Origin: Haliclystus octoradiatus
Lineage: Eukaryota; Cnidaria; Staurozoa; Stauromedusae; Haliclystidae
Reading direction: 5' to 3'
DNA: 64,000 nucleotides
Assembly (NCBI GenBank): GCA_916610825.1
Contig: OU744447.1
Span: 7,509,402-7,573,401, forward strand
Part shown: positions 140-53,638 of the stretch, in pieces
Layout: every line of letters starts with the position of its first letter
Numbering within the stretch: the stretch's first letter is position 1
Made by a program: the position numbers and the translations under genes
Notes under the pieces: generated by a model
Told to the model about the DNA's origin: nothing
What the model saw: only the letters and a program-made list of their open reading frames with translations
Databases searched by the model: none

Positions 140-19425
<19,286 letters not shown>

Positions 19426-32098: not shown

Positions 32099-32460
32099 AA
32101 GGGACCGCTCATTATTTATGACCGGGGTTGGGTAAATAATAAATAATTGTCAAAAAAGGTTGGGTAAACAAAAAAATGATGCAATGATATCACCTATTCC
32201 ATTTGAAATACAAAGTGGAAGGAAGTGATGCATTTTTACCTCTCATTTTCATCCAAACCAGCAATTTTGGCTGCTATAGCTTGAAACAAGAACTTCCATA
32301 TCCTTGTGCAAGGAGTATTAAAAACAAAGCACCTCGATATTTTACTTAGGGTTGGGTAAAATGTTTTTTCACGTTCTTTATGGTTGGGTAAAGGAATATA
32401 TAGTGGAAAAATTGGAGCTCTTCGGCCCCAACCCCGGTCATACATAATAAGCGGTCCCTA
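32099..32460. mobile_element. PIF/Harbinger-like MITE, copy upstream of the secreted-peptide gene
   Basis: Ends are GGGACCGCTCATTATTTATG and, inverted, CATAATAAGCGGTCCC, followed inward by GGTTGGG repeats. It is flanked on both sides by TAA, the 3-base target duplication typical of PIF/Harbinger elements. It ends 161 bases before the ATG of the secreted precursor, so it lies in its promoter region. Confidence 0.8.
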
Positions 32461-32621: not shown

Positions 32622-33987
32622 ATGAAGTTGGTAATAACTTTGCTTTTGCTTTCGATAGTGGTTCAAAGCTGCATGTCATTTTATTATTATACTAGCCGTC
32701 GTTATGTCAACGCGAATGATGCTCCTCGTCGGTATAACGAAATAGACGATGAAGGAAATGAAGAAGCAATTATGGATCAGATCAGAGGTAAGAAAAAAGG
32801 AATACAAGAAAAATATGAAGATCTTTGTATTGTATAATACATAGCAAAACTTTCATCTTGCAATTGGCAATTGATACTTAACTTCCTCGAGAAAAGTAAG
32901 GGGCCGCTCATTAATTATTATTAGGGTTGGGGCCGAAGGGATTGGGGTTGGGTAAATAAAAAGTTATTGTCAAAAAAGGTTGGGTAAACAAGAAAAAGAT
33001 GCAATGATATTACCAATTCCATTTAAAATACAAATTGGAAGGAAGTCATGCATTTCTTCCTCACATTTTCATCTAAACCAGCAATTTTGGCTGCTAGCTT
33101 GAAACAATAACTTCCATATTATTGTCCAAGGATTATCAAAAACAAACTACATCGATATTTAATTAAGGGGGGGGGGGGTAAAAAAATTGTTGACGTTCTT
33201 TATGATTGGGTAAAAGGAATATATAATGGAAATACTGGAGCTCTTCTGTCCAAACCCTGGTCATAAATAATGAGTTGGTTCCTAATGATTTACTGAGAGT
33301 CGAGTGCTGCGCGAACAGGATGCATGTCGTTTAATAGTCGATGTCGTTTAGTTGATGTAAAATCGAACTGTCAATTCATTCGTGAAAACTTAAATACTAG
33401 ATGTATGCTAATCCTCCGTTTGATCATGGTTCGATTAATATGCACCGAATGTAACTCGCGCAAACTGTATAAGAGTTTACATTACTACATGTACCAAGTT
33501 GGATTATAAAACCAAACTCAATTTAGCTTTCTGTGTGACCTCAGTTTCCATCTAGAAGTTACATAACTGTTCGAACATACTTCAAGGCATACGCTTACGC
33601 ATACGCAAGACCATAACGCTTTGCGGTCTCAAAGTTGAAAAATTAATTTCATTTCTCGAGCCGCAAGTATAGTGTGCATCACCCACCATACTCGAAAACC
33701 GAGTGCAAGACCATCGATCAATTAAACAAAGTTTTGATTTAAGACTCCTCGAAAAAATTAAGATCCTCTATCAGCTCAAAAATCGCAGTTAAAAATTAGC
33801 AATTCCATTACACTGATAGTAAACAGTTGAATGTTTGTAATTGAAAGTTTGAAACATCTGATTTATGATTTATATTTTCCCCTTAGATGTCATGATGGAG
33901 GATGAAAGGGTAAAATCTGACCCCTTTTGGGGAAAAAGGCACATACGCAGAAGATTCTTAAGACGCCGTCGAGGTCAAGGCAAATAA
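32622..33987 (+). CDS. Small secreted precursor, antimicrobial-peptide or neuropeptide type (two exons)
   Basis: Exon 1 is 32622-32787 and exon 2 is 33887-33987 (donor GTAAGA, acceptor CCCCTTAG, phase 1), giving 88 residues. Residues 1-19 are a signal peptide (MKLVITLLLLSIVVQSCMS). Residues 26-27 and 36-37 are Arg-Arg sites. Residues 40-62 are strongly acidic. Then SDPFWGKR (66-73) has the Gly-Lys-Arg form used for amidation and cleavage, and the tail 74-88 (HIRRRFLRRRRGQGK) carries nine basic residues besides His. There is no cysteine after the signal. The acidic prosegment followed by a cationic end is the plan of linear antimicrobial peptide precursors such as Hydra arminins; W-G-K-R alone would suit an amidated neuropeptide. 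The intron contains a second MITE copy. No family match was recognised from the sequence itself, so function is inferred. Confidence 0.68.
32900..33282. mobile_element. PIF/Harbinger-like MITE, copy in the secreted-peptide intron
   Basis: Same family and orientation as 32099-32460 (GGCCGCTCATTAATTATTAT at the left, GGTTGGGTAAATAAAAAG inside, AATGAGTTGGTTCC at the right) with TAA on both sides. It starts 112 bases after the exon-1 donor. It contains a run of about ten G at 33169. Confidence 0.75.
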
Positions 33988-36272
33988 ACTATATAGGAAA
34001 CTATATATGCGTACTGCTTACACTACATCAGTACTACAGCAATGAAACAATGATTGAAAGCCATAAGCCAATAATATTCACGGAATTATTCAGTTTTAAC
34101 ATGATCTCAAGGGTTTATTGATGTAAATTAATTTTGCACATTTTTGAATTAAATAAGTAAGTATATAATATTCAGTGTGTTTTATTCAAAGACGGTATTT
34201 TGAAGATTGTCGTGAGTTTAGACTAGCTCTAGGTTCAATACGATAGGTCATGATGACGATACAGCAATATTTTGATATGATGGTCTAGCGATAGTGTAGC
34301 GATAGTGTAGCGATGGTTGGTGTCCTTTTACTATCAAAATTATGCAAAATAAATTGATGAGAAATAAACAAAAGGGGCCATCCATATATAAAGGGCACGT
34401 ACTCAGTTCTCATGTTCTCACTATAACGTCAAGATGAGGGCCGCGATGGAATGAGGATGGAATGAGGCTATGGTCTCTGTAGCACTTTTTGAAAGATTAT
34501 TACAATGATGTTAATTATCAGTTTACTGATGATTAAATCTATAAATTTATTGCTGGACAGTAAACTACAAACTCATTATTAACCGCGAAAATTTGTTTTG
34601 AGTTTTATAAAAAGGGTAGTCCGATCACAGCCTCACTGTCAAAATTTAAACTTGGTAGAACATGTAGCAGCTTGATGTAGCCTGGGACCGAGAGAGTCCT
34701 CGAGGCACATTGTAATATTGTTTCGTGTAAATATCATCATGTTGTGTATCACACTGCTGCCAGTTTAATGCGAATGAGAGGTAGTGGGCAGGTAGGCGAG
34801 TTCGTAATGGGTAACTAAATAACATTTTTAATGGTGATAATCCGTCCGATCGTGGGATATTTCGATATCGTGGGATCGTGGGATATATCTAAAACGATTT
34901 TACTTGAGAAGTAGTGTAATTCTAAAATTTTCCACTTTTTGTCTTTACTCTTATATAAATACTCTGATTATTTTCAGTGGGAGCACTATGAGGGGAAAAA
35001 CAATCCCACTACAATGATTATTGTATATTATTATTATTATATCCTATTAGATAAGACCTCACTGTATTGGAATAAGGATGGAACTATATTCAATTATTCT
35101 ACAAAGAACAGGCCCTAGACCCTAGACCTAGGCCCTAGACCTAGTTAGAGTAACTGTTTAAAAAAACGTATGATTGAGATATAAGATTCGTCCATGGCTT
35201 AACAATGTAAACGAGAAATGTTTGTCATGATGAAAAACAATGTTAAATAAATTTGCAAACACACACACCCACAGCTACATTAATTGATTGGGCAATGTCT
35301 TTGTCACCACCCTCTTCCCAATAAGTATTTGAGTCAAATTTTGGGCAATTTGAAACAAATGATGGCAAAATCGTTCAATTTTGAAGGTGATATACATAAC
35401 TGCCACTGGAGCTCGCAAATATGCAAATGCCACGCCTTTTTCGTGTAAAATACACATTTCGTCAGGCAAAATGGACACCTACCGGCCTAGGTCAAAGGAA
35501 TGTATAGTTACGGCTGTTGTCGCTGTACACTGTACAGTACAATATCAATTCATGCATAGTGTTCATCTTTATTCAACGTGGTTGATCTGGAAAGTTTACG
35601 ATAATTATACAAAGGGGCACCTGCTGCTCCTCTTCGCAAGGCTGTACGTAGTGGAAGTTGACAAGTTGTGTTGTAATTCCCATTAATCAGTCAAGCATAA
35701 ATTCTTCAATCGGGTGGCAATTCTGCATACCAAGGTGGAATGCATTGCCAGAAGAATATGTTTCTTTGAAAACTGTTTATGCATCCAAGCAGTCTTTTAA
35801 GTAATGTACATATAAATCATTATAGCAATTTCAGTACTAGCCTGCTTGCAGACAGACTTTTCCTTCGTATAGTGAGATTAAAAGGTATGTCTGCACGCAG
35901 GCTATATACTATATCAGATTTTATATTGTATTCCAATGGCTGTACATAAGTGAGGGTCAAAAGCTTTCCTGTATTTTGCCAGTCAAACTTATTTGACATT
36001 TTAGAAACATACGTAAATTATAATTAATTGGGTCATTGTCAATTTTATAGCAGGGCTGTTCAAATTTTGACGCATGCGTATTGATGTTTCTTGTAAAAAT
36101 GCTGCTGTTGTTGCTTTGTTGATTGTTTTCCTATCGCATGACTTGGATGACAGAAATTTTTTGAGATGTTTGAATAGTTTATTCGTGATCTCCTGATCTG
36201 AATTACAGATATACGACTAAAGACGCATGAAATTAGTTGAATCTCATATGGTTGAAGTAAATTGATATCAAA
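33988..36272. other. Intergenic between the secreted-peptide gene and GIPC
   Basis: Contains AATTAAATAAG near 34146 as a possible weak poly(A) region for the peptide gene. At about 34372-34440 there is one end of a repeat (GGGGCCATCCATATATAAAG, GTACTCAGTTCTCA) that matches the reverse complement of 63495-63537. The 99-bp-type MITE at 35838-35906 is also here. No further gene was seen. Confidence 0.4.
35838..35906. mobile_element. Short MITE, TAGCCTGC family, second copy
   Basis: TAGCCTGCTTGCAGACAGAC at the left and GTCTGCACGCAGGCTA at the right with only about 35 bases between. No target duplication is visible. It shares the inner TTTTCCTTCGTATAGT with a decayed copy at about 2100-2120. Confidence 0.65.
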
Positions 36273-39200
36273 ATGCCGTTATTTAAAAAGCGTGATAGCG
36301 CTTCCCCACCAACACCAAGCAAAAATGAAGTCAATGAAGATTCACCAACTGAAACTCAACCACAAACAGAAAATGGAGAAACTCCACCTTCTCAAACATT
36401 AGCAAAACAACTTGTTTTCTTTACACAATTAGCCCATGGAAGCTCAACGGAAAAAATTAGTGATTTTACCAATGTTAAAGAACTATATCAAAGAATAGCT
36501 GATGCTTTTAAAATTCAAGCTAGTGAGGTAATGTGTACCGACTTGTTCACGTTAATTAATTGTACAAGTAGGCTTGCTTGAAAATGTCTGAGAAGGTGTG
36601 ACTCGTGTTATTAATTATCTGCTAGATGTACATATTTTCCGTTATCACACTTGCTAAGCTATTTATAATTACAAGCTCCTATCATTTGATCCCGAGCTAG
36701 AGAAGGATTTAGATATCAAATTGGAAGGGGAAACCTCGCGAATGCTCAAACTTTGCTAGGAAAAGTGTATTTTTGACGACTTGTATTGAATAGAATGAGC
36801 AAGGAGGAATTAAAAATGTCAGAAATTTTTCATGATTTAATCGAAGATTGAGCTGATGAGAGAGAAATTTTGCGAATCTACTAGGCCTACTCAACCAGGA
36901 CTCGGAGACATTTATTCGAGGCCTTGCCGATAAGTCCCTAGGTCAGAACCATCTTCCAGAAACTTGTATTACAACTTCAACTTGCTTGTGTAATTGCATG
37001 AAACTTGAATATATAAAAGTCATATATTTACATTTTCTGTTTATAATAATTGATTATGACATGGTGTGTTTTATTTACTGAGCCTTGTTGACCTGATTAT
37101 ACCAGATGCCGCCATGATTTCTAATTGAATTCCAAAACACAAAGGTTTTGTCTGGTATAAATAATGCGTAATCTCGATTTTACCTTTGCAAAATGTTTTG
37201 CAACAGACAAAGGCATGTGAATCCTCTTTCAATCCTTTCCAATCCTATTTATTTTAATCTACAAATAGAACTGCTTTCATTGAGAAAATTTCCACTGTTT
37301 TCTAGTCCAGAATATATTCCTATATAATAATACAATAATAATATAATATAAAATTTCTTATATAGCGCACGTATCCATTTGCTTTAACAATTTATGGAAA
37401 TTAAGAATTAAGAAAAACTAAGTTAAAAAATAAACAGGGTTAAAAAATCAGACTATTAAAAAACTACAAAACTACTTTATAAATGGGTGAGTCCTCAAAT
37501 TCTTTTTAAATGTTAATAAACTACCATATTTTCTCAGTTCCAATGGTAGTTTATTCCATATTATGGGAGCGCATACTGAAAAGGCCCGGTCTCCATAAAT
37601 TTTTGTGCGCCCAGTTGGTTGGAAAAGCAATTCGTCCTTAGTGGAACGTAATGATCTTGTACATTTATTTAAAATTAGATTCCTTGATAAATATTTCGTT
37701 GCCATTCCATTTAAGGATTTAAAAACTAACAAACAAATTTTAAAAACAATCCGATATTGATCTGGTAGCCTTACATTTATATATAGCCTTACATTTGATA
37801 GAACCAACATTTGGAAACACTGGATTGACTAGGAAAGTTAAGATCCTTTCGCTTAGAAATTTACACATTATTCAAGATTGCAAGTGCATCCAAACCAGCA
37901 TCTGACATACCCTGTATAGGCCCCTGATACTGTATGTCAACAACATAATTTAATATTCACAGAAGTAATTAAGTATCATGTTTTCCATCATTAGTTCGTT
38001 CTTCGCACTGATATGTGCCAGTTAAATCAGTAAATCATAAGCAATTACGGCACAATAGATAATTTTTTTGAGTTGGCTCTTTATTATAGTAATGGTAGGT
38101 CGTGCCTGCTGACGTTACAGGGAGAGTTGCTAAGAGCTACTATGGCCGTTAGTCAGAGCTCTTTGATACAACAGACACGACCATACAGGATGACAACAAG
38201 AGACGAAAGAGCACAGTTTACAACGTGACAATTTACATGACTATGACAGATAAACGGATATAACACCTCTTGCAGACCTTCCAACTTGAGATTTGAAAAA
38301 ATAGTGAGATATTTGAAATTCCGTATTTTGGGGATAGAATATAGGGGCTGCCCCGAAGGGATGGCCCAATTATAGGGGTTTTGGTGGCATGCATTTCATC
38401 ACGGATTCAGAATGGCTTGTAACGAAACTTTAAGACATCATTTTGAATAATGTTGACATTTGAAAACATAAAAGCAGAAACAACAACTAGAATAATCCAA
38501 CAGAGTATAGGCCTACATTAAGATGTTGAACATTAATTAGATTATCAAAGAGTTAATACACATAAAGTAGGGACATTTTCTCCGGATTGGATTTTGCCGT
38601 GAGAAGGTGAGAGAAGCTGTAAGACCGTGAGAATCAGAGTAAAAGTGTGAGACTCACGGCAAAGCAAAGCCGTGAGACTTGGAAGGTCTGCCTCTTGCGC
38701 AAGCCACTACATTTAGCCTACTGTTGCCTTAGTAGTGTCAATCCAAGTCCATGTTGTCAATCAATTGGCCTCTATATGACTATATCCTCATTTTACTTAT
38801 ATATCGAATCAACTCTTTTTTGCGGAGCCGTGCCTGTGGCATTAATTGTCTTTGTATGGCAATAAAATGGGGTTTAACAAGTAAAAGAAGCCTAGAAGGC
38901 TATGCTCCATTGATTTTTCCATGGTAATGTCTTTGATCTGTCTCCCTAATAGAGCATAACTGGTTGTAGGCTATATACTATGAGATCTACAACTTATAAC
39001 ATATCTGGGTAACTACCAATGAAGTTACTGTGAAAAAGTTTGAATAAATGTAAACAAATAGGAGAGAACTCAATTGCAATTAAATTTGGATCGCTCGTAT
39101 AACCCACGTCTCAGAGTCTGAGATAACTGACATAACTTAAGCATTACAGCCATTTCCACATTCTCATGGATTGTCATAGTAAACAAGATTGTTTAATATA

Positions 39201-42200
39201 CAAAATGCTTTTCATCAGGGAATTGAAACCTAACCTGAAAAAGCAATCAGACTCTATAAGGGCAAAATTATTTTAAGCCTTTTAGATATATTTAGGCTAA
39301 TTCTTTTATTCTGAAATGTCTATAAATATCCAATAATTATAATTTTACTTTTAACTTGAAAATGGCTGATGTTGATAGCCAAAACATTGTTCAAACTAAT
39401 AAAAATCCTTTATTGCTACTGGTCAATGGCTTTTATATTGAAGTGTTTCTCAAAGAAGATATTTTTTAGAACATTTCAAAGTAGATAAATAATATTTGTT
39501 ATATATGCTACAAACCCAATTTTGGATTTGAGTTTGATAGAGACTCAGTGTCATACTGAATAGTGGAACAAGTTTGTGACTTACAAAATAATTTATTCTC
39601 TTATTTTTAGGTGTTGTACTGTACACTCAACACTCCGAAAATCAACATGGATAAATTATTAGGGGGACAAATTGGTCTTGAAGATTTAATATTTGCTCAT
39701 ATTCGTGGTACTACCAAAGTGATTCCAGTTGAAAAAACTGCTGCAGCATTAGGTTTAACAATTACCGATAATGGTAACGGTTCGGCATTTATTAAACGTA
39801 TAAAACCTGATTCGGTTGCATCAAAATTTCCAAATATATGTATTGGGGATCATATATTAAGCATCGATGAATCTGGACTGTATGGTAGCAGACATTTCGA
39901 AGTAGCAAAAATGTTAAGAGATTTTCCGCAAGGAAAGACTTTCAAATTGACATTGGTAGAACCTCAAAAAGCTTTTGGTGAGTATGAATTCTAGTTAATA
40001 TATTTTTCAAGTAAATATCCTAATATATATATATAAATATATTTAATAATAATAGAAATAGAAAGGAGTCGAGACCACACATTCTTATACTGTTAGTTTA
40101 AGTTTCATACTTTTTATAGCAATCATCAGACAGAAATAAACTATTAATATTAAAAGTTTATTAATACTTTATTTCTGTCTGATGATTAAAAGCATGAAAC
40201 TTAAAGTTACAGTATAAGAATGTGTGGTCTCTGACTCCTTTCTATTTCTATTATTATTATTTACAGCTCTGCCATTTATGACATCTGAGCTCTATATTCT
40301 TTGCTATTAGATAATATTAGGTAACATCTTATAATATATAAATATTTATCCACACTGATTGCTCAGTTGTAAAGTGTCTGCATTATGTACGGGAGTTTGC
40401 GGCTCCATTCCTTTTTCATGCACATAGATTTGCGTAATTATCAACTGTAATTTCATTGTGTTGTTAGTTCGAAGTAACACAGCAAATATAAAATTGATCA
40501 TCGCACCTTGAGGGCTCAAAGTTGAAAGATGAATTCCATTTATCAAACAATAAGTAGCGATTAAACATTTTTGCTTCCGGGATTCTAATTTTGCTTCCAA
40601 AATTTTTCATATGATTAAATCATGTAAATGTTTTGGACGTCTTTTCTTTCAAGAATTATTGTTCATTTATTGCCATAAAAATATGATAAAAATCGAAGAT
40701 TCCCCTGCGAAAAAAAGTTCATGAGTTCATGAACATGAAATTGCCCAAAAGTTTATGAACTGTTCATGAAATTTTGGGCAATTTCACGTTCATGAACTCT
40801 TTGTGACTGTTCATGAACTGTTCATGAACTGTTCATTAACTCATTGATTTTTTTGGCAGGGGTTTTCACTGATTACGGGCTTCGGCAATTTTGAAACTTT
40901 TTGGAAAGCCCACTCGGTGCAAATTAATTACGAATTGAACTCCAAACCGTATGATTTCCATTTACTAACGTGCCTGAAAATGCAAAGGGAATAAGTTAAG
41001 TTTTGTGGGAAGACTTGATCTCAAAGAAAATCACTTTCATCAAATGAATTATTTATTTTCGAACACTATAATCATTCACAAAATGAAACTAACTGAAACT
41101 ATGAAACTACTTTAAACCATTTACTTACTTCGGCTGCAGCTGAAAATCTATCATTTAAATTAAATTCCGCCACTGTTTACAAATCTGTAGGGATTGTTTT
41201 TGCCCGCAGCATAATTCCGCGATGCCATAATCCACAATAATGGAACTTTAATTTCCTTGGCATGTTTTAATTCGATTGTTCTATCGGCCAATCATATTTG
41301 AATTTCATTTTTTTGTACTGCAGTGCAATTTGGATTTGATTTCATCTTTTTGCACTGGAATTACAGTACCTCGAAATTGCACTTCTCTATGCCAAGCAGA
41401 ATAGAGTAATTTTTTCAGGCATGTTATTAAGAGGTGAACGTCACCCCTGCGAAAAACAGTTCGGGAGTTCATGAAAAGTTCATGAACTGTTCATTAACTG
41501 TTCATGAACTCCTGAACTGTTTTCGCAGGGGCAGTGATACTATATGTAACATTCAAAATTTGATTGGAATAAAAATTATTATATATTTAAAATTTGTACA
41601 CTCCACCAATCCACAATGGTAAGCCTATGATATCTAACCCTGCTACTATTATAAGCTATGTTAGCCTTACTATAGAGGATAAATTCAATAGAAAATTTGA
41701 TATTTTTAAGCACTGGAGTGTGACACCGCTCCTGGTTATGCAACCCTTTTAGACAGGTTGGACGCTTCACAAGATAACTTGTATACGATTTCATCTTGAT
41801 GAAGACTGAATTTCATGTGAGCCTATAAATGAATAAATAGATAAATGATAACAATAGAAACTGCAATGAAAATCATTAGTAATTTTGGCTTGTATTTCAA
41901 AAAGCTACATTCAAATTAGAGATAGGCTTATCCATTGATGTACAATTTTCCAGCAAGTGGGGGAAATATCGATAGTCATTTTAGACTCATAAATTGAACC
42001 AAGACATAGACTCAAACAAGAATGGGGAAATTATTCAGTATATTTTATGAACACTTTTATGCTAATTTCAAGTTGCCCAGAGAAATATGCCGTTTTAGAT
42101 CTGTAATGCTCAATCTATCATGTCTGCGCAGCCAAGAATTTTTTTAATCATCAGTAACAAACCACTAAGCAAATTATTTCTTATAGAGGGAATTGGGCCA

Positions 42201-45200
42201 CGTCAAAGTAAAGGTCAAACATCAGCTAATTCCAATGTTATTGGTGCTGGTACCGCAACACTCCGCCTTAGATCTAAAGGACCTGCAACAGTGGAAACAG
42301 AGGTATGATCTGATCATATGTAGGCCTATATAATTATTGCATATATGTGCCCATATCTTTGAGACCCCTTGTCGGCCATAAATGACCGACATTGGACATG
42401 AATTGTAGAGTTTAGAAAGGTTTTATTAGACTGCGATGGAGTTTTTCTGTCAAAAAGGAATTAAAAGACTGGATCAACGCATGTCATAGACCAAAGGCGT
42501 TTAGTACTTAAAAACAGCAGCACGCTTTGATCATCATCCGCGGCGAAAAGAATACAAAGCGTTTTGCTTCTGTTTAAATACTCAACACCTTGCTTTGTGA
42601 CAAGAGTTGATCCGATGTTTCAACACCTTTTTGACAAACCTTTCTCAACTCTACAATTCACATTCAATTTCAGTCATTTATGGCCAACAAGGTGTCCCAA
42701 GGATATAAGCATATCTTTTTCTGGAAAGTGGACCATTTCTTTTTCATCTAGACCTTGTTATTTTTACATGTAGTGTCCCCTCTTGTCATTTCGGCATGAG
42801 TTCCGACTTTCGAAGGAGCACTATTTCTGAAATATGGTACTATTAACATTAAATAAATCAGCTTACAAGAGTCCAAATCGAAAAATTATTGTCGCCGTTC
42901 CTATTTATTTTGCATGGGCTACTCGATTGCGGAAAATCTTTTGGTGTCATGTGCACTTTAAGCGAATGTAAAAAGAACGAGTTTAAAATCGTTGCATGAG
43001 GATGATGATATTATAATTATCCAACTTGTAGCTTTTAACAGAGGGGAGAGAAGTATTTTGACACACATGCAGGTTACAATTTATAAGTTTACCATACCGT
43101 TTAGAGAAAGGTTCACTATCTTTATTTTAATTAATTATTAGAATAATTAAGGGCTATTGTAAATTTAGGGCTAATCAGGGGCTATTGTATCACCCCTGCG
43201 GAAAACAGTTCAGGAGTTCATAAACAATTCATGAACGTTAAATGGCCCCAAATTTTCATGAATTGTTCATGAACTGCTCATGAACTGTCTTTGAAGGTTC
43301 ATGAACAGTTCATGAAAAGTTCATGAAAATTTGGGGCCATTTATTGTTCATGAACTGTTTATGAACTCCTTAACAGTTTTTCGCACGGGCAATGACGAGT
43401 GGGGCCTTCCTCATGAAATAATATTAAATTATTAAACTGAAACAGACGCAGAGCACAATTTTTCTTAGATCTTTACACAAGAAATTGTATTAACTGCCCC
43501 TACAATTTTTTTTATTGTTATGAACAGTTTACTCTTGTAAAAACAGATTACGAATTTCATTAATTTCCGAGTTTCATGAACAGCTCACAACAAGGCAAAT
43601 CAATGTTTATGTAGAGTTCATGAACTTTCCGTTCATGAATTGTTCATGAACTGATTATAATGTATTAATTAGGGGTGAGACAATTGTTCTGAAAACAATT
43701 GGTTCTGCCGATCATCGGCACCAAATTTTACTAAAGGGAAAATAACCGGCATCAAAATTTCAACAAATTTGTCAATCTTTGAACTGATTTTTTTAGACAA
43801 TGAAATTGAAAACAAAAATTTGTTATCCTCAACAATTAACAATTATTGAACAAGATTGAGCAGGACACTGAGAATTATAATCGGCAATTAACCAATTGGC
43901 ATCGAAAATTGGTACATTTCGTTATTGTTTCACCCTTAGTATTCATGAACAGTTCATGAAATTTTGCGAGTTGTTGCTTTTACGCAGTTCATGAATAGCT
44001 CATGTAACCAACATACATACACACTCCATTAGACCAGTTAAACAGATATTAATAAACTTGAAATTCACAAAGCGCGGTCATGAGATCCACATCTCAATTA
44101 CATCCATGCGAAAAACAGTGTAGGAGTTCATGAACAGTTCATGAGCATTTCATGAACAGTTCATGAGCATTTCATGAACGTTGAATGGCCCCAAATTTTC
44201 ATGAACTGTTCATGAATCTCAACGAATTGTTTTTCGCAGTAGCAGCTATCACACACTAAATCCATCCCATACAAAATATTGCTATTTCTAACATTATTGA
44301 TATGACGTTCAAGAGTTATATCCATCAATTTATGGATTAAGATTACTTATTTTTTTACTATAGCCTAATAACATCACATATTTTTATAGCTTGAAGTTAT
44401 ATTCTTGCCAGATTTATATGCTTTTTAAATACCCCTGTGAAAAAAGTTCAGAAGTTCATGAACAGTTCATGAACAGTTCATGAACAGTTTTTGAATGTTA
44501 AATGGCCCCAAATTTTCATGAACTGTTCATGAACAGTTCAGGAAAATTGGAGCCATTTAATGTTCATGAACTGTTCATGATCTCCTGAACTGTTTTTCGC
44601 AGGGATAGGGAGAGTTTGATCGCAAATACTGAAGCCTTCTAGTCTGCTTCAAGCTGTGTTCTCACATTTCCATGTAATGTATAAAGCTTGGCGATTTTAC
44701 CCACATTTTCATGAAGACTTCCAAATCGGTTCATTAAAAGTTCTTATCAATTGTTTGTTTATGAGCTAATGAAATTGGATGTGGCTAATAATTTGTTTAT
44801 TATTATGTGATGTAGATACCACAATGGGAGCCACGTGCTGTGAGTAAAGTTGATGATCTTTTGGAAAGTTTTATTGGAATAAGAGATTCCGAGCTCGGTA
44901 TGTCATAACACAAACAAAATATTGACACAATCTATCATAGCATACAGTGAAACCAGTTTAGGTGCAATTCGGATAAGTGAAATCCTCGCTTTATGCAACC
45001 TGGCTTTAAAACTCTATTTACTATTTTGTAGTAATGTCTTTGTTAAACAATTTCGGATGAGTGCAAATTTCGGATAACTGCAATGAAAATGGGTTACACT
45101 GTATAGTAATTTTGTTAGTTCCAATACATTATGAGCTGTTTTGTATGAGGGGTTCCTAGGAAAGTTTTTGAGAAATCTATGTTCCCTGCATATCAAAATC

Positions 45201-46688
45201 ACCCCAACTCCCCTTTAATTTTCATGAGACCTTGCTTTCGGAATATATGAAGACAAATAATTCCTTTTATGGTAAAATATTTCTTTCATATTTTTACCAA
45301 TTTTTGCATCGAAACATTGATATTATTTATCTTAATGGACCCAATATAGGCGAAAATACACACAAATCATTGTTGTGTAGTGTTGTTAAATTCTCGTTTT
45401 TATTGGACTATTTTTGACAAATTCCTGTTTCACGATATTAGAAAGGGTGATGTTGATTAATGTTTTATAGGAATTCCCCTCTTTTTATACTGTTATGAAA
45501 ACGTCCAAACATGACAGAAAATGTAGAATATACTACATGTCCATAAAATTTTAATTTAACAATCTTCTTAACTTCTGACGCGGTTGTGATAAACTAAGTT
45601 TCGATTTGTGATTTGATGACATGCTGATTTGTGTGTACAAGTCAATGAGGATTATTCCAACTTGAAAACCAAACGAAGGTTTCAATAGTGTGGAAAATAC
45701 GTTATTGTCGCCTACTCTATTTACATTTCTTCCAATCTTTCCTATTATATAGAGACCGGTGAATCCCCTGCGAAAACAGCTCAGGAGTTCATTAACAGTT
45801 CATGAACGCTAAATGTCCCCAATTTTCATAAACCTTCACAACAGTTCATGAAAATTTGGGTCCACTTAACATTCATGAACTCCTGAACTGTTTTTGGCAG
45901 GGGGTTATACTAGGAATGACTCAATCAGTGTTGCTTGGTTAATTTAATTAACAGGGGTAAACAATAACAAATGTTTTAACCAAGTTGATATGTTCTTGGA
46001 ATTGGACACTCGGTGAAATTTGATATGAAATGGAAGTCATAAATTAATCCAGTTGAACACCAAATTTTCATTTGTTACTCATACAGTGAAACCTGTATAT
46101 AACAGCCAGCTACAAGAGGTAGATAAATGGACCACTACCGTGTAACCCGCTTATGTGCAATTCAGATAAGTGAAATTCCCGCTTATCTGCAACCTGGCTT
46201 TGAATGAAACCCGTTAAATAATTTTCTGGTCAAGTCCTTGGTAAACAATTTTGGATAACTGCAAATTCGGATAAATGCAATGAAAACCGTTTGCAATTTT
46301 GACTTGCACTTAAGCGGGTTAAACTGTATATGTATTTGGGTGGCCTTTATATTTATTACTAGATGTTGATCCAATAGAAAATACTATTTAAGGCATTGCA
46401 AGAGTTACCAACTATAGACAGGTGGCCGCTGTATAGAGGTGGTCGTTATAACAGGTTTGACTGTACTCCAGAAAATGTAGAACACATTTCAATTTTTCTT
46501 CTACGGTATACAAGTATTGTCTTATTTTATTTCTAGCAAATACTCTTGTTGATATGGCTGTGAAAGAATCGAATCCAAGTGACTATGCCTTGAAAATTGA
46601 TGGTCAGTTGGGGGATTTTGCATTTCCAGATGATTTTATATTTGATGTATGGGGTGCTGTGAACGATGCTAAAGCAGGAAGGATTTGA
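36273..46688 (+). CDS. GIPC: GIPC family PDZ adaptor protein (complete, five exons)
   Basis: Exons 36273-36527, 39611-39977, 42187-42302, 44816-44897 and 46537-46688, all GT-AG with matching phases, give 323 residues, close to the usual 310-335. Residues 1-30 start [13 protein letters not shown] and are low-complexity. The GH1 region follows ([32 protein letters not shown]). Then [20 protein letters not shown] and the PDZ domain at about 122-202, with carboxylate-loop motif [20 protein letters not shown] and GDHILSIDE. After the linker [16 protein letters not shown] comes GH2 ([40 protein letters not shown]). Known role: a cytosolic dimeric adaptor that binds receptor C-termini through PDZ and myosin VI through GH2, driving endosomal traffic. 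Paralog number cannot be assigned. A poly(A) signal AATAAA is at 46907-46912. Confidence 0.96.
37440..37810 (-). pseudogene. LINE ORF2 C-terminal fragment
   Basis: The minus-strand frame from 37810 reads [73 protein letters not shown] and [13 protein letters not shown], then a stop. This is the conserved C-terminal end of CR1/L2-type non-LTR elements (FKxxLLxxKxLNG, GDRAFSxxAPxxWNxLP). The rest of the ORF is missing. It lies in GIPC intron 1, antisense to the gene. Confidence 0.85.
38070..39185. other. GIPC intron 1 middle part, no recognised element
   Basis: No coding exon or repeat family could be identified. The open frame at 38647-38865 has no splice signals or homology that I recognise. 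A run of related GTGAGA words occurs near 38600-38665. Confidence 0.35.
39186..39400 (+). mobile_element. Penelope-like element 3' remnant in GIPC intron 1
   Basis: The frame around 39186-39280 ends [20 protein letters not shown] followed by IRAKLF and a stop, matching the endonuclease end MLFIREMKPSLN of the PLE at 3731-4412. A hammerhead-like motif lies 75 bases after the stop, as in the other copies. Only the last part of the ORF survives. Confidence 0.7.
39355..39392 (+). ncRNA. Hammerhead-like motif after PLE remnant
   Basis: Reads CTTGAAAATGGCT, loop, AGCC, AAAACATTGTTC. GGCT/AGCC forms a perfect stem II. The following part keeps the AC-loop-GU form of a tiny stem III. The core is degenerate. 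Compared with 3767-3805 the stem II pairing is kept although its bases differ. Confidence 0.4.
40060..40255. mobile_element. Inverted pair of hammerhead-bearing element ends
   Basis: The left arm (about 40060-40135, minus) and right arm (about 40165-40255, plus) are reverse complements through GGAGTCG/CGACTCC-type ends, CACACATTCTTATACTGT and TCATCAGACAGAAATAAA. Each arm contains a perfect CTGATGA core (40123-40129 minus; 40179-40185 plus) followed by GAAAC. In the left arm TGCT/AGTA can form stem II; in the right arm that stem is partly deleted. They may be paired Penelope-like or retrozyme-like termini. Confidence 0.5.
40702..40862. mobile_element. GTTCATGAAC-type MITE, GIPC intron 2
   Basis: CCCCTGCGAAAAAAAGTTCA at the left and GATTTTTTTGGCAGGGG at the right, with multiple GTTCATGAACTGTTCATGAA units between and the landmark AAATTTTGGGCAATTT. 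Orientation cannot be set because the element is nearly palindromic. Confidence 0.8.
41443..41531. mobile_element. GTTCATGAAC-type MITE, short form
   Basis: The 89-base minimal form: CCCCTGCGAAAAACAGTTCG, GGAGTTCATGAAAAGTTCAT, then the mirror CTCCTGAACTGTTTTCGCAG GGG. Its ends are perfect or near-perfect inverted repeats over about 30 bases. It defines the family termini. Confidence 0.85.
43193..43391. mobile_element. GTTCATGAAC-type MITE, GIPC intron 3
   Basis: CCCTGCGGAAAACAGTTCAG at the left, TTAACAGTTTTTCGCACGGG at the right, and GGCCCCAAATTTTCATGAAT mirrored as AAATTTGGGGCCATTT in the middle. A truncated relative follows at about 43560-43665 (AGTTTCATGAACAGCTCA). Confidence 0.8.
44104..44240. 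mobile_element. GTTCATGAAC-type MITE, GIPC intron 3
   Basis: ATGCGAAAAACAGTGTAGGA at the left and AATTGTTTTTCGCAG at the right. It includes a tandem duplication of GAACAGTTCATGAGCATTTC. Confidence 0.75.
44432..44606. mobile_element. GTTCATGAAC-type MITE, GIPC intron 3
   Basis: CCCCTGTGAAAAAAGTTCAG at the left, CTGAACTGTTTTTCGCAGGG at the right, three tandem AACAGTTCATG units, and GGCCCCAAATTTTCATGAAC mirrored by GGAGCCATTTAATG. It ends 210 bases before GIPC exon 4. Confidence 0.8.
44945..45101. mobile_element. TA-flanked mariner/pogo-like MITE, type GCAATTCGGATAAG
   Basis: CAGTGAAACCAGTTTAGGTG at the left and CAATGAAAATGGGTTACACTG at the right, with TA on both sides. GTGCAATTCGGATAAGTG is mirrored by CGGATAACTGCA. 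CAGT-type termini with TA duplication suit the Tc1/mariner superfamily, pogo/Tigger branch. Relatives are at about 46137-46330 and 61022-61212. Confidence 0.75.
45764..45903. mobile_element. GTTCATGAAC-type MITE, GIPC intron 4
   Basis: CCCCTGCGAAAACAGCTCAG at the left, CTCCTGAACTGTTTTTGGCA GGGG at the right, and AAATTTGGGTCCACTTAAC inside. Confidence 0.8.
46084..46463. mobile_element. TA-flanked MITE (CAGTGAAACCTGTATATAAC type) with a second MITE inserted
   Basis: The outer element has ends CAGTGAAACCTGTATATAAC and GTTATAACAGGTTTGACTG with TA duplication. At about 46137-46330 it is interrupted by a GCAATTCGGATAAG-type MITE (GTGTAACCCGCTTATGTGCA to AAGCGGGTTAAACTG). The outer element's uninterrupted copies are at 47219-47395 and 49958-50134. 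It ends about 75 bases before GIPC exon 5. Confidence 0.8.
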
Positions 46689-47218
46689 ATTGTTCTCAGT
46701 TTTCAAAAGTAATTATGATTTTTAAGATTAATTATAAAGATGTGAACTTTGACGTGCAATTATAACTTATTGAGAAATAACTTTCTACCTATGGTTATTA
46801 AAATATCAAGGTACAAATCTTTCTAGTATGCAAAATATGTGATAAACAGTTTTTATATAGCATAATATTTCAAGTTTGCTTGTAAGCAACTACCAAATCA
46901 TAATATAATAAATATATTAATATATATAAGTAGGGATTTTTAATCTAGAAATTCATGTAGACTTTCTTATGGACTTTGAATTATATGAAGTTATTTACAA
47001 ACTAATAATTATATTACAATATAACTTCTATTTCTTTGTGTAATTTCAATTGTTTTAATCAATCCTGTTTTAATGCTGTAGCCTTTTGCCCCCAGAGACC
47101 ACACATATAGAAATTCGAACTTCGATATGACTACTACAGTATATAAATATTCCTATAATCCTTATTTAATTTACTTTATTTTTTCTGAATTGTCTAGTAT
47201 TTATGGCAGCTGATAGTA

Positions 47219-47395
47219 CAGTGAAACCTGTATATAACAGCCAGCTACGAGAGGTAGATAAATTGACCACAAAATACAGATGGCCTTTATATACAGGTTT
47301 GATTTGATAGAAAATACTATTTTAGACATTGCAAGAGCGACCAATGTAGACAGGTGGCCGCTTTATAGAGGTGACCGTTATAACAGGTTTGACTG
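47219..47395. mobile_element. TA-flanked MITE, CAGTGAAACCTGTATATAAC type
   Basis: 177 bases, ends inverted, TA on both sides. The inner text CCAGCTACGAGAGGTAGATA, GACAGGTGGCCGCTTTATAG and GTGACCGTTATAACAGGTTT matches 49958-50134. It lies between GIPC and MYSM1. Confidence 0.85.
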
Positions 47396-47849
47396 TAGAT
47401 GCATATACTCCTTACAACAAATACTTTGTTTTATTCGCTGCGAATTAATGCTATTTGAATGCTCCTTTCCTTTGACAATTTTGAATATTTTTAGCATTAA
47501 AAAGCATCTAAAATTTTAAGGACGGTGGGGTGCGAATTCGAATTCAATTCCATTTTGTTTTTCTTAAATTGATACTTAATATAGTTATTCAGGTCAGAAT
47601 GTATACCCCAAATAGTTTTTATAGACGCATTTTTGAAAATGGATTACAGCTTCGTGGGTTTACTTCAACTTTTTTGCTCATTGAAAAACAATACTTCTAA
47701 TATTTTGAAAATTTTGAAATAGATACCCCAGAAATTTTCAAAGATCATGGACACTGAAATGGCAATAAAATTTAGGTATCGATCTTGAATGACGAAGTTT
47801 TAACAGAAAATAGATCTATAGCTCGAGAATCCGGAATAAGATATCGGGC

Positions 47850-48081
47850 ATCCAACGGCCGATACAAGTCCTTATCGCGAGCTGTACCCATGCTCCTTTT
47901 ACCCCGACTCATCAACAACAACATCAAAAACAAGATGGCGAATGATCTTGAAAATACTTTCTCGTCTCTCGTCCTCTCGAAGTTGATAGATTATATTATC
48001 TAAACTGTTAATCAGCTTTCTATTATAAATATGCCATATCTAGTGCATATCATCAAGTAAATAATATACCTGAAATATGAT
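47850..48081 (+). promoter_or_regulatory. Probable MYSM1 promoter/5' leader with YY1-type element and short uORF
   Basis: A locally GC-richer stretch before the MYSM1 ATG. AACAAGATGGCGAATG at about 47930-47945 matches the AAnATGGCG core that YY1 binds just downstream of many animal transcription starts. The same ATG (47936) opens a 22-codon frame ending TAA before the main start at 48082, so if transcribed it is an upstream ORF. No TATA box was seen. Transcript start is not known. Confidence 0.4.
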
Positions 48082-51000
48082 ATGTCGTCTGATGAAGAAA
48101 TTGACATTGAAAATGTCGAGGAAGACGGGTAAGAACAGTTTAGTATTTAAGTTAAGTCAAGTGATCACAAAGAATTTAGAAAGTAAACTAGTAAAGAAGA
48201 AACTCAAAATCACAAACCTTAATCTCACGATTCATCAACACAGTCTGATTCACAACTGCTTATCAGCAAGACAGCAAGTAAAATCTTATTACATGATAAA
48301 TGAAGGTAGACGGTAGACCAAGAGAAGACCTATTGAACTTGCGACTTGCGTAGCCTACTGCTCACTTTCACTTTAGGCTCGGTTTCAGACTCTCCGTACT
48401 TTATATGTTATTCTGAAAAGATATAACACTGACCATGAGAGCTCGATATTGACACAGAATAAATTACGATTTCTTAACTGAATTTCAATAAACCTTTTAA
48501 AGCAGTAAAGCACGATAAGCACCTCTATTGTTGGAAATATGACCTTGGATTGGATCCATTTTTGCATCATTTGCACGCTGTAAACATCTACACCCTATAA
48601 ATTTTGAATCACTCTAAACAAGATTGTCAAGATTTAGGAAGTTATTGATTCCAGTAAATTCAACAGTAAGGCAATGCAACGCAACAGTAAATTCTATTGG
48701 AAAATGATTTGTTTCAATTTGAATTTCACATAAGCTAGATTTCACATTATCGTAAACTTGAACCAACTAGATTTCCAATTGCATGCTTATATTGAGATGT
48801 GAATCATATAACTGGTTCAAAATAGCTGATCGAATTTAATTGAGGAAATATTCTTTTTCATTTTTTGCTACATTGAAGGAAGCAGAAAGTTTAGATTATA
48901 TTTTACGCACAGGATTTTATATACAAATTTAGGTACTATTTTGTTTATCCCAAAAAGCATGTGGAAATAGTAGCCAAATCCCCCAAAAAATCCAAGAAAC
49001 ATTACTATATTCCCGGGTGTCATAAAGTTGCAATAGACCTAGCGCCACAGAACTAAGATGGCAGGTTTCTCCTGGCAACTTGAAATTCACATAAAGGTGT
49101 TCATAAAAATATGCTAAACAATTACCTATTTCTTGTTTTAGTCTAATTCTATTGTGGAGCTCACCAAGGATGAATTTATAAATCAGTTCACGGTCAGAGC
49201 CCTGTTAATTCATACATTTTGTGTTTTCGTCATGCTTCTATGAATTCGCAAAATCTTTGAAGAACAAAAGAATCAAGGACCATGAAGCTCACATCCAGCA
49301 TTTTCTCTAAATGATAGAAAGGCTTTGACCGTGAATCATGAAATATAAATTGGATTTTTGAAGGGTTTACAATTGAATTTAAGTAAAACAAGAAATAGGT
49401 AATTGTTCAGTACATATTTTTATGAACACTTTTATGTGATGTTCAAGTTACCCGTAGAAACCTGCCGTTTTAGTTCTGTGGCGCTCAGTCTACAAGGTAG
49501 GCCTAACAATTTTTCGGAGGTTTGTCTTGATTAAATTCTGTTTCACCTAACAACATCGACACAGCCTGGAAAATTTTCAATGATTATTCGATATTCATAA
49601 TGTGGTTATTCAACATTTGATTCAAGTAACGTTTCTAATTAACTGTCTTGTATTTTCTTATACATTTTTATTTATTTGTTATCACTGATGAAGTGGAAGT
49701 TGGTATTGCAATTGTTTCTGTATTTTATTTCATTTCATTGTGGTACAATTACTGGCTGTAATTATTAGGAAATATTTTATATCTTTGTACTTTAATTTCC
49801 ATAACGCAGGTCTTGTTTACAAATTTGAAATTACAAATTTTCAATCTCGATAGCGTTTTATTCCAAATCATTCTCCAATATCAATTTCTGATTATATAAT
49901 TTCCAACTAAAGATCAGATTATAACATCTTATTTTTTTATTTTCATGTAAGTATATACAGTGAAACCTGTATATAACGGCCAGCTACGAGAGGTAGATAA
50001 TTTGACCACTATAGACATGTGGCTTTTTTATACAGGTTTGATTCAATAGAAAATACTATTTTAGACATTGCAATAGTGACCACTATAGACAGGTGGCTCC
50101 TCTATAGAGGTGGCCGTTATAACAGGTTTGACTGTATGTTTTTGTTTTATTCACGTTTGAATTCCTTCTGAGAATTACTATATGATGACGAAACAAAAAT
50201 TTTCTTTTAGGTCACAAAACAAAGGATTGTACTGTTTGATATTTGCGAGACAATAGAAATGCATTCAAGTACGGAGCTGTTTACAGGATTGTTGTTGAAA
50301 AGGGAAACAGTTTTCATAGGTTTTTCTCAAATTTGATGCATTTATCTAAAAAATGTATGTATGTATGTATGTAAAATGAAGCCAGTCATGTACCCCTCTG
50401 GTTAATGATGAATTCATTTTAGGTTTTTCAAGTATATTGCATCTAAAACGGCATTGTGAGTCCCCGCCTTACATAATATAAACATACAAATTGAAATTTA
50501 GCGTATGTTTAAAAGTAATTGCATAATATTCATGTCAGGAAATTTGGTGCAGTATAACTACTATACGGTAAGTGTCTGTAGCCTTATCAAAAAAAGATAT
50601 TATTTTTAATTCTTTGTATATCTTTCCCAAGTGTTAATCAAAACTCCAGCGGGCCTGTGAAGTTTAATAGGCCTACAGTTTTTCACATGATGTGAACATT
50701 TATGAAATCATTACACATCATGAATATTAAACAATATGATGTTTATTGAGTTTAATTGTATTTTTTTGTTTTTAGATTTTCAAACAATCCAATGGTGATC
50801 AAGGTATTGGGTTCTTAAGTTATTAAAGTGAGGGTCGATTGAGCTGACTGAGACCGGCATAGCTTACCTGAACAAGCTATTCCATTAGGGTCAACTCATA
50901 AAATTTTTAAATGTTTACCTTAACTTGTTGAACTAGGTGCCTTGAGGATTTTGCCAAGTTTTTTCAATGAATTTATAAGTAGGCCTACAAGTCAGTTTCA

Positions 51001-53603
51001 AAAGTTGAAAAACAGACACTCAAAGTCAAATGACGTCATAATGTCTAACTTTTAATTAAGACAAGTTAAAGCGTGATATAATCATAATAGCTTTTGATCA
51101 TTCGTTCGTTCATAACGAAAAATTGGAAAACCTGGTAGCCTGGCTGCTACTACTAATGCTTGATAGTCTGTCTTGATCATATCGTGCTCAATCGTCATGA
51201 CGTAAGAGGGACGGCACATTCCTATATTGTGACTGTCTATACTACTACTATTAATCATGATCAGAATTTAGACATTATGGCATCACTTTGTATCTCCTTT
51301 TTTCAAATTTTCAGTAGGCCTACTGGTCATACACGTAAATTGTGTCTCCTTTTTCTTTGTTTTGAGTTGGAGATAACTCCATAACTTTAAGCAGCAACTG
51401 TATCAACAGTACCGTAATGTATGGCCATCCAAACATTTTCATTCATCCATGCTGTCTAATTTTTCTAATTGCTTAATGTCTTGGTAAATTTGATTATCTG
51501 AAAATGCTGTAAAGTTCAAGTCAATTATTATAATTCTAATACACAGGCATGATATAGTTACTTTGAAAAGCTGATTTCCTTATTTTCGATCAGAATGAAA
51601 TTTTCAAAGCAAAAGAAAATCATTCAAAACCCTGGTTTTCCTATTGTTTCACTGGTCCGTCAGTTATTAAGAGGATTTCCTCTCGTTTGACTGATGTTGA
51701 CTTTCATACTTGAATACAATTTTGAAGTTTTAATAGTTACAATTATTTTGATTTTATTGTAGAGTTGCGCCTCCAACATCACAATACCTTCCATCCATAT
51801 TAATCAAGGTGAGTCTGCTACCTGTCTGCTGTCTGTTGAATTTTGCAATAGTATTCCAAATTAGACACCTGCAAATCCGATCCAGGTCCGTACCCGATCT
51901 TATCTAATAGGATTTTGCCGAACTCCGAATGAATTTTTGATTGTCGAATCGTTATTTTAAATTATCCTTTGTATCAGTATATACATTGAATCATAAAATT
52001 TTCTGACCAGCATAAGCCATAGATACAATAGGAAGTCTTAACCTTGTTCGAAATAGGTTATTGTTTAGATATGACACAATATCTTGAGGCTACTCTTTGG
52101 TAAACAGAGCAATATTGTATTATAAACTTTTAGTAACTTTTCACGATAGTACGTTGTGTTTGGGACCATAAAAATCAAAGTTGAAATTCACATTTTAAGT
52201 CCGTAAATAAGGGCAGTTCTAATTTTCTATTAGCTAAAAAAGCTAGTAAAAAAGCTAGTAGCCTACTTACTTTGCTAAATATTTGATTTTTCTGCTTTAG
52301 TACTCCTGTCAAAGTTCAGGAGTTCATAAACATTTTATGAACATTTCATGGACGTTAAATGGCCCCAATGTTCATGGACTGTTCATGGACAGTTCACGAA
52401 CCATCACAGACAGTTTATGAACATTTCATGAACGTTAAATGGCCCCAATTTTCATAAACTGTCCATGAATTGTTCAAGAAGGTTCATGAACTGTTCTCCT
52501 AAACTGTTTTTCGCTGGGGTAGTCCTTACTCTTAAAGGCGATTGACCCACCTCAACGATAATTTGAATTGAGTTGCCCTACAATTGGCTAAAAATGGTTT
52601 CCGAGCACAATATGTTGTGATGTCACTAAAAATTCTCAATTTACAATTTAGGTAGCCTAGCATTTTAAAGAAATGTATTGTATTCAATTTATTATTATTA
52701 ATAATATTAATATTATTTTTGACTTTTAGCCAACAAACAATCTCCATCACCAACAAAGAGAATAGAAACAAGGTGGGTGTCTCTTCAGAATTGAGGACTT
52801 TCCTCCTGCCTTTGAAGTCCTGTATACAAGGAGCAACCCAGGTGCATCAGAGCTGGGAGACTTAGAGGGGCAAGAGGCACCCCTTTGTATAATGATCAGC
52901 TATTACTTAAGGTCAATACAAACAATTCAGTTTTGTATTTGTTAGTTGTATTTGTAATGCAATAGAGGAAATGAAACGAGCATAGAACGATACCATTGAC
53001 ATCATTCTGTTATCCTTGAAAAACGACATTGAGCACAATTGTTTAGTTTGCAGATGCTAAGTTGATTAGAAAGTTATTGTATTTGTTACTACGAGTCGAA
53101 GAAGAACAAATATATACGCAAACAATTAATCATGATTTGTAAATTTCTGAAATTGAATTGGAAAAGGTGTAACGTAGTTACTTACCTTGGCAAGTTACCC
53201 TATTAAATGATCTATTTACAATGCCTACCAAGTTGCTTCTGCCTACTCGAGTTGAATGATCTACTAAGGTCATTATATGCAATTCATGCATGATGAATCA
53301 ACCAGATTAAGAACCTTGTAGGCCTAATGTTCAAGGAAATCGAAGAGGGAATGAATCTGTTTATCCATAATTGCCCTTGTATTTCCTTTTTCCTTTTCCT
53401 GATTGTATTTTGTTTCCTTGAAGAAAAAATTTACGTTACTGCTAGACTAACCAATCTGTCTAGCCAATTTACTCAGATAGGTAGACTCCAAATCCAAATA
53501 GTTACGTCCTTATAGAAGCGTTTCACTTCGAGTCTGGCTCCGAAAATATAAGGAAAATAGAGTCCATCTCCAGCTCCAAATATTGCAGACAAACTCCTGT
53601 AAA

Positions 53604-53638
<35 letters not shown>

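Follow-up and report, generated by a model that had tools for sequence, protein, structure and literature searches.

The two-exon gene that we call gene A, in a 64,000-nucleotide stretch of Haliclystus octoradiatus DNA (the window), probably encodes the precursor of an arminin-type host-defence peptide that is linear, cationic and probably amidated, a reading to which we give a probability of about 65%. The argument is built on a predicted gene structure, three neighbouring paralogues, a charge layout shared with a family scattered over six chromosomes, a tryptophan anchor at the start of the tail and an amidation-type C-terminal end.

A predicted gene for a small secreted precursor

Gene A has an intact frame and its product is laid out as MKLVITLLLLSIVVQSCMS-FYYYTSRRYVNANDAPRRYNEIDDEGNEEAIMDQIRDVMMEDERVKSDP-FWGKRHIRRRFLRRRRGQGK. 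Its features, in window coordinates, are as follows.

32622-33987, + strand: two-exon gene A, intact frame, 88-residue product
32622-32787, + strand: exon 1, signal peptide and start of the prosegment, residues 1-55 and the first base of Asp56; donor GTAAGA at 32788
32622-32678, + strand: predicted signal peptide MKLVITLLLLSIVVQSCMS, about residues 1-19, cleavage site placed by eye
32679-32735, + strand: variable N-terminal stretch FYYYTSRRYVNANDAPRRY, from the alignment of genes A to D; longer than in the paralogues
32736-32786, + strand: acidic block NEIDDEGNEEAIMDQIR, kept within the local group
32788-33886, + strand: phase-1 intron of 1,099 b with GT-AG borders, splitting an Asp codon
33887-33987, + strand: exon 2, running from the VMMEDERVKSDP block through the Arg-rich tail to Gly-Lys-stop; acceptor CCCCTTAG
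33925-33984, + strand: predicted cationic tail FWGKRHIRRRFLRRRRGQGK, net charge +10, with putative mature peptide boundaries
33928-33939, + strand: W-G-K-R, residues 70-73, candidate amidation or cleavage site, read from the sequence
33979-33987, + strand: Gly-Lys-stop, candidate C-terminal amidation signal, in all four local genes

The frame closes with a TAA stop codon (33985-33987). Counting Lys and Arg against Asp and Glu, the prosegment (residues 20-68) has a net charge of -6 and the tail (residues 69-88) one of +10, which bears out the signal peptide, acidic middle and basic tail that an earlier, sequence-only reading of the window had described. The W-G-K-R that it had placed at residues 70-73 is present in gene A, and its cysteine-free propeptide holds as well, the lone cysteine of the product sitting in the signal peptide. 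The Gly-Lys-stop, which that reading did not include, is a second possible amidation site. The mature product is likely a 19-residue amide that starts at Pro68 or slightly before and ends in Gln-amide, with PFWGKRHIRRRFLRRRRGQ-amide as its predicted sequence. Searches of Pfam, NCBIfam and PDB sequences with the window protein, the alignment of the local genes and other family members gave weak, chance-like matches below the cut-offs or none, and Rfam gave 0 matches across the window at gathering thresholds.

Three paralogues beyond the window end

Three intact paralogues of gene A lie no more than 44 kb away, just beyond the window end and on the opposite strand (coordinates on the window's contig, C2).

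C2:7574127-7573523, - strand: paralogue B, both exons, frame intact
C2:7580865-7580133, - strand: paralogue C, both exons, frame intact
C2:7585957-7585215, - strand: paralogue D, both exons, frame intact

All three retain both exons, the frame, the donor GTAAGA and Gly-Lys-stop, and their acceptor is CCCTTTAG as against CCCCTTAG in gene A; the two exons with good splice sites proposed earlier for gene A are thereby confirmed. Among the four genes, the divergence of aligned bases reaches 11% in exon 1 and 19% in exon 2. The signal peptide and two acidic blocks (NEIDDE.NEEAIMDQI and MMEDERVKSDP) are conserved, whereas both the tail and the stretch that follows the signal peptide vary. In the tail it is the richness in Arg, not the sequence, that is retained. 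The Trp is kept in all four genes, yet W-G-K-R has become W-F-K-S or W-S-I-S/G in the paralogues, and only gene A has Gly after this Trp. The gene A intron measures 1,099 b as against 353-485 b in the paralogues and is enlarged by a MITE-like copy inserted at about 32944-33271.

A wider family on six chromosomes

The search covered one genome, that of Haliclystus octoradiatus, with 261,861,806 b in 33 sequences; C4, C7, C8 and C11 match chromosomes 3, 6, 7 and 9 in size (PMC9975415). Searches with single members found at least 38 tail exons, a lower bound, on six chromosomes (C1, C2, C4, C7, C8 and C11), with clusters on C2, C4, C8 and C11.

C4: at least 18 tail exons, 33.4-34.2 Mb
C8: at least 7 tail exons
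C11: at least 5 tail exons
C1: at least 2 tail exons
C7: at least 1 tail exon, found in the sequence downstream of its exon 1
C2: the 4 local genes and at least 1 tail exon at a second place

The family signal exon reads MKLTLLFVLLFGVALAIG, and typical tails, each ending at a stop codon, are DPKPFWGRRRRSRRRRLLIRTIFRTIRLIGK, DPKPFFWRRRRRGTRRRRLRFSWGVPGPGKK and DPKPWFYRRRRRVTRRRRRWWRRRRRYGKK. Of the 38 tail exons 36 were read as sequence, those at C8:5797554 and C8:5813833 being known from search matches alone, and 29 of the 36 were counted. The seven set aside comprise identical or near-identical copies (C4:33983681, 33491082, 33931781 and 34133806; C8:5485302; C11:14550733) and a truncated tail (C1:34462462). 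A further match at C1:35142604 has an internal stop and stands outside the counts, as do exon-1-only matches at C2:34719203, C2:35961105 and C1:14254712. Identical tails occur in several copies, and recent duplication or uncollapsed haplotypes could therefore inflate the count. Near-identical C4 tail exons at 33939237, 33983681 and 33992419, with others on the opposite strand at 33943966 and 33997535, form inverted pairs about 5 kb apart that recur about 44-54 kb on, and these pairs are either a recent segmental duplication or uncollapsed haplotypes.

The gene models of the family are by-eye predictions from the genome sequence. Where the upstream part was read, members on C1, C4 and C8 devote one exon to the signal and one or two to the acidic part, and the C1 and C8 models have phase-1 introns. 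Where both of its flanks were read, the last intron splits an Asp codon in the four local genes, the second C2 place, C7, C1 and C4, and in C8 it splits a Gly codon; the first residue given for the other tails presumes a G ahead of the intron. The start codon of the C1, C4 and C8 members directly follows a 3'-splice-like AG (L058 at about 3332, minus strand; L059 at about 2398, minus strand; L061 at about 1139), which would be either a spliced-leader acceptor or the end of an intron in the 5' UTR.

A plain search linked the local genes to this family weakly, gene C reaching a C4 tail at an E value of 9.3. We built a tail profile from 23 tails of C4, C1, C8 and C11 that left out the C2 and C7 members, and compared the scores of five held-out tails with those of 5,000 shuffled versions per tail, composition being preserved. 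With the HMMER null2 correction off, the real score was reached by 1 shuffle for gene A, 1 for gene B, 0 for gene C, 0 for the second C2 place and 3 for C7; with it on, by 219, 51, 4, 1 and 2,593, respectively. We gave more weight to the results with null2 off, since the shuffles already control for composition. The C7 exon 1 matched other exon 1 sequences at E values of 3.8e-4 and 0.003. Membership of the C2 genes is thus well supported by sequence likeness, that of the C7 gene less so.

Charge layout and processing signals

In each of the eight precursors that we assembled, a signal peptide is followed by an acidic piece (net charge -6 to -16) and this in turn by an Arg-rich tail (+10 to +18), the boundaries between prosegment and tail having been set by hand. 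Among the 29 counted tails, 26 have a Trp within four residues of the Pro at the tail start and 23 have an amidation-type C-terminal end, which is absent from the remaining six. W-G-[KR]-R is found in six (W-G-K-R in gene A and W-G-R-R in five more), once in mid-tail. Because the Trp and the amidation-type end are widely common and W-G-[KR]-R is not, an antimicrobial-type precursor is favoured over a neuropeptide precursor.

The sequence-only reading had left both outcomes open for gene A, as a lineage-restricted antimicrobial or neuropeptide gene. As a neuropeptide precursor, the product would be cut by a convertase at W-G-K-R to release a short amidated peptide ending in PFW-amide, with the basic tail as a by-product. 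The six tails with W-G-[KR]-R speak for this, as do the GKR sites used by medusozoan preprohormones and the pQPPGAWamide peptides of staurozoans (PMC6909153). The staurozoan preprohormones for RPRSamide, GRFamide and pQPPGAWamide do share with gene A a G-K-R after a possible peptide, and Trp-amide ends occur among them, but they hold several copies of one peptide (PMC6909153), whereas gene A has a single site that its nearest paralogues do not keep. Annotation of five staurozoans, two of them Haliclystus, gave three other families in the same study, although its script would miss a single-copy precursor because it demands at least three similar peptides. With no Gly after the Trp in the three nearest paralogues, the amidated motif is not conserved, and cleavage at W-G-K-R would leave the kept Arg-rich tail unexplained. 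We regard a neuropeptide precursor as quite unlikely. That half of the earlier proposal loses ground, the Arg-rich tail and the amidation-type end being kept more widely than W-G-[KR]-R, while the gene family lends indirect support to its antimicrobial half, in an arminin-like form.

Arg-rich tails under little sequence constraint would also suit a secreted polycation without antimicrobial duty, such as a nematocyst, mucus or matrix component or a peptide that binds RNA, DNA or glycans, and no scanned protein attained a family cut-off. The tail-start Trp in 26 of 29 tails and the amidation-type end in 23 of 29 stand against this. A Trp at the tail start and an amidated end suit a membrane-active peptide, and a bulk polycation needs neither. 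We therefore hold a polycation of this kind to be unlikely, if somewhat less so than a neuropeptide.

Evolution of the signal peptide and the tail

Whole-gene dN/dS was 0.77-1.18 in five of the six pairs among the local genes, the sixth (C-D) being without synonymous change, and coding constraint is therefore weak in the window's own group. By region, we saw no clear sign of purifying selection among these four genes outside the signal peptide. There, gene A gave dN/dS values of 0.45, 0.13 and 0.42 against B, C and D, while the pairs B-C, B-D and C-D have one to three replacements and no synonymous change. Ratios near 1 are what decaying or non-coding duplicates would show, with gene A as a pseudogene whose frame is open by chance, and the MITE-like insertion in its intron would fit that too. 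Against it, frame, splice sites, signal peptide and Gly-Lys-stop are kept in all four genes despite the divergence of their exons, and dN/dS in the signal peptide stays below 0.5 for gene A against each paralogue. We find such decay very improbable; judged by the exons, splice sites and frame kept in the paralogues, and by a larger family with the same plan, the predicted gene A is more than a chance frame.

Across the wider family, the signal exons of three C4, C1 and C8 members differ mainly by synonymous changes, with dN/dS of 0.02-0.14, which we read as a sign of coding constraint. The signal exon gave 0.43 for gene A against the second C2 place, 0.40 for gene A against C7 and 0.09 for the second C2 place against C7. 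A value of 0.046 for the DPKP core over 22 of the 23 tails is partly circular and carries little weight, because its columns were picked for conservation.

The tail is the fastest part of the gene in two recent pairs, B-C and B-D. Between B and C it differs at 16 of 69 sites, with a tail dS of 0.28. When end gaps are charged, the intron differs at 18 of 342 sites (Fisher 1.5e-5) and the 3' flank at 15 of 261 (6.3e-5); when they are free, the figures are 29 of 342 (0.0011) and 18 of 258 (0.0005). The B-D pair shows a like pattern. In pairs with gene A, the tail excess was insignificant in two of three intron comparisons and two of three flank comparisons. Since tail dS is raised too, fast change in the tail need not mean positive selection, and slippage in CGN runs or gene conversion of the flanks may lie behind it instead. 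Close copies with tails that differ more than their introns offer a case for the study of defence-peptide diversification.

Likeness to arminins and other precursors

Arminins are bactericidal cationic peptides, made mostly in the endodermal epithelium. PMC10945409 describes them as strictly confined to Hydra, whose clustered antimicrobial families arose by duplication, and in their precursors the negative N-part is conserved, the positive C-part poorly so (PMC4820302). The staurozoan family resembles them in its signal peptide, acidic N-terminal piece and cationic tail (in all eight assembled precursors), in a conserved N-part beside a diverse tail, in its amidation-type end and in being a clustered multigene family. 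Arminin 1a, KPWRFRRAIRRVRWRKVAPYIPFVVKTVGKK (PMC12011183), shares its KPW start and GKK end with seven of the 29 counted tails, each of which lies on C8 or C11. The arminin precursor has 88 residues (PMC11820242), as does the window protein, which may be coincidence. There are also differences: the window gene has PFW...QGK and not KPW...GKK, and the staurozoan tails are much richer in Arg runs. Because it is without KPW...GKK, and because the comparison was with mature arminin 1a and not with the precursor, we do not file gene A as an arminin.

Mature arminin 1a scored 16.0 bits against the tail profile, and 14 of 10,000 shuffles did as well. For seven control antimicrobial peptides (TP4, protegrin-1, magainin 1, thanatin, HNP-1, tachyplesin-1 and indolicidin), 630 to 8,596 of 10,000 shuffles did as well; these are seven of the nine other peptides in the antimicrobial peptide table of PMC12011183, two venom peptides having been left out. 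With two sub-profiles, 32 and 42 shuffles were as good as arminin, as against 993 and 216 for the best control, TP4. With null2 on, 329 of 5,000 shuffles reached the score of arminin 1a, the controls having been scored with null2 off only. The arminin likeness therefore exceeds composition but is short. Homology of the staurozoan family to arminins is suggested by these scores, and convergence on a Trp- and Arg-rich amidated peptide is possible in place of common descent. We put forward only tentatively, and think rather doubtful, that Hydra arminins and the staurozoan family come from one ancestral medusozoan defence-peptide gene. If so, the Hydra-only, de novo antimicrobial genes would be old genes with tails evolving too fast for ordinary homology searches, the C8 and C11 members (DPKPW...GKK) would have changed least, and the window group would be a divergent branch.

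Whatever its descent, gene A most likely works like an arminin, judging from the layout of its predicted product, as an acid-shielded precursor of an amidated peptide rich in Arg and Trp. The signal peptide would take the precursor into the secretory pathway, where the acidic prosegment would neutralise and shield the Arg-rich tail. A cut near the acidic S-D-P boundary, just ahead of the Trp anchor, would free the tail, the C-terminal Lys would be trimmed and the Gly converted to an amide. The resulting Trp- and Arg-rich peptide would bind and disrupt bacterial envelopes, either to defend the animal or to control its microbes. We infer expression, processing, amidation and antibacterial action of the gene A peptide from this arrangement. 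One point against a defence peptide is that Arg-rich runs are convertase sites, and the tail could be cut up during secretion.

Two other precursor types are alike in layout. Trichoplax genes termed arminin-like on layout alone encode antimicrobial candidates with a signal, an acidic N-part, a basic C-part and a C-terminal amidation signal, but have about 150-250 residues, and we set them beside the staurozoan family by description alone (PMC12013895). The signal and propeptide family of frog skin active peptides (Pfam PF03032) likewise has a signal and an acidic propeptide before a cationic peptide; it matched a C8 member at an E value of 0.065 and 13.7 bits as against a cut-off of 27, and we claim no relatedness.

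We found no description of an antimicrobial peptide family from Staurozoa in the literature examined, and the excerpts of PMC12013895, PMC10945409, PMC4820302, PMC12194522, PMC11820242 and PMC6164757 hold none of this staurozoan tail family. Three staurozoan antibacterial peptides predicted in silico (PMC11820242) could belong to it. The Hydra genus-specific antimicrobial genes have been argued to arise de novo (PMC10945409), and the family makes it testable whether they did or are fast-diverged members of an older medusozoan family. Some 38 genes with a clear precursor anatomy also form a ready set of peptides for testing.

Neighbourhood and genome observations

Upstream of gene A, at 32100-32459, lies a MITE-like element whose terminal inverted repeat measures 33 b (2 mismatches); the insertion in the gene A intron is a second copy of it. 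The element has at least 40 long matches in the genome, including the query, among 112 candidates of which 40 were scored. The peptide gene is adjoined at 36261-39994 by exons with GIPC GH1 and PDZ domains, from a GIPC-like gene. Farther along, 58498-59547 holds a 349-residue open frame for a rhodopsin-type GPCR, which among PDB entries most resembles adenosine and amine receptors, and 61235-62611 a 458-residue open frame with a SWIRM domain. A long inverted repeat at 3724-4889, with arms 95-99% complementary, encloses a frame with a GIY-YIG domain and is perhaps a Penelope-like element.

Repeats in the window include dispersed arrays based on the 11-mer GTTCATGAACT, whose ends are often CCCTGCGAAAAACAG-like (13208-13391 and 40703-56235), an ATGT array with a 343-b higher-order unit (10277-11172) and a 619-b TAATAA array (14873-15491). 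On the mitochondrial contig of 18,316 b, ARAGORN found just two tRNAs, a tRNA-Met and one with anticodon tca, which we take to be the Trp tRNA usual in mitochondria. The mitochondrial cox1 holds eight TGA codons, and further long open frames on this contig are presumably polB-like, as in medusozoan mitochondria.
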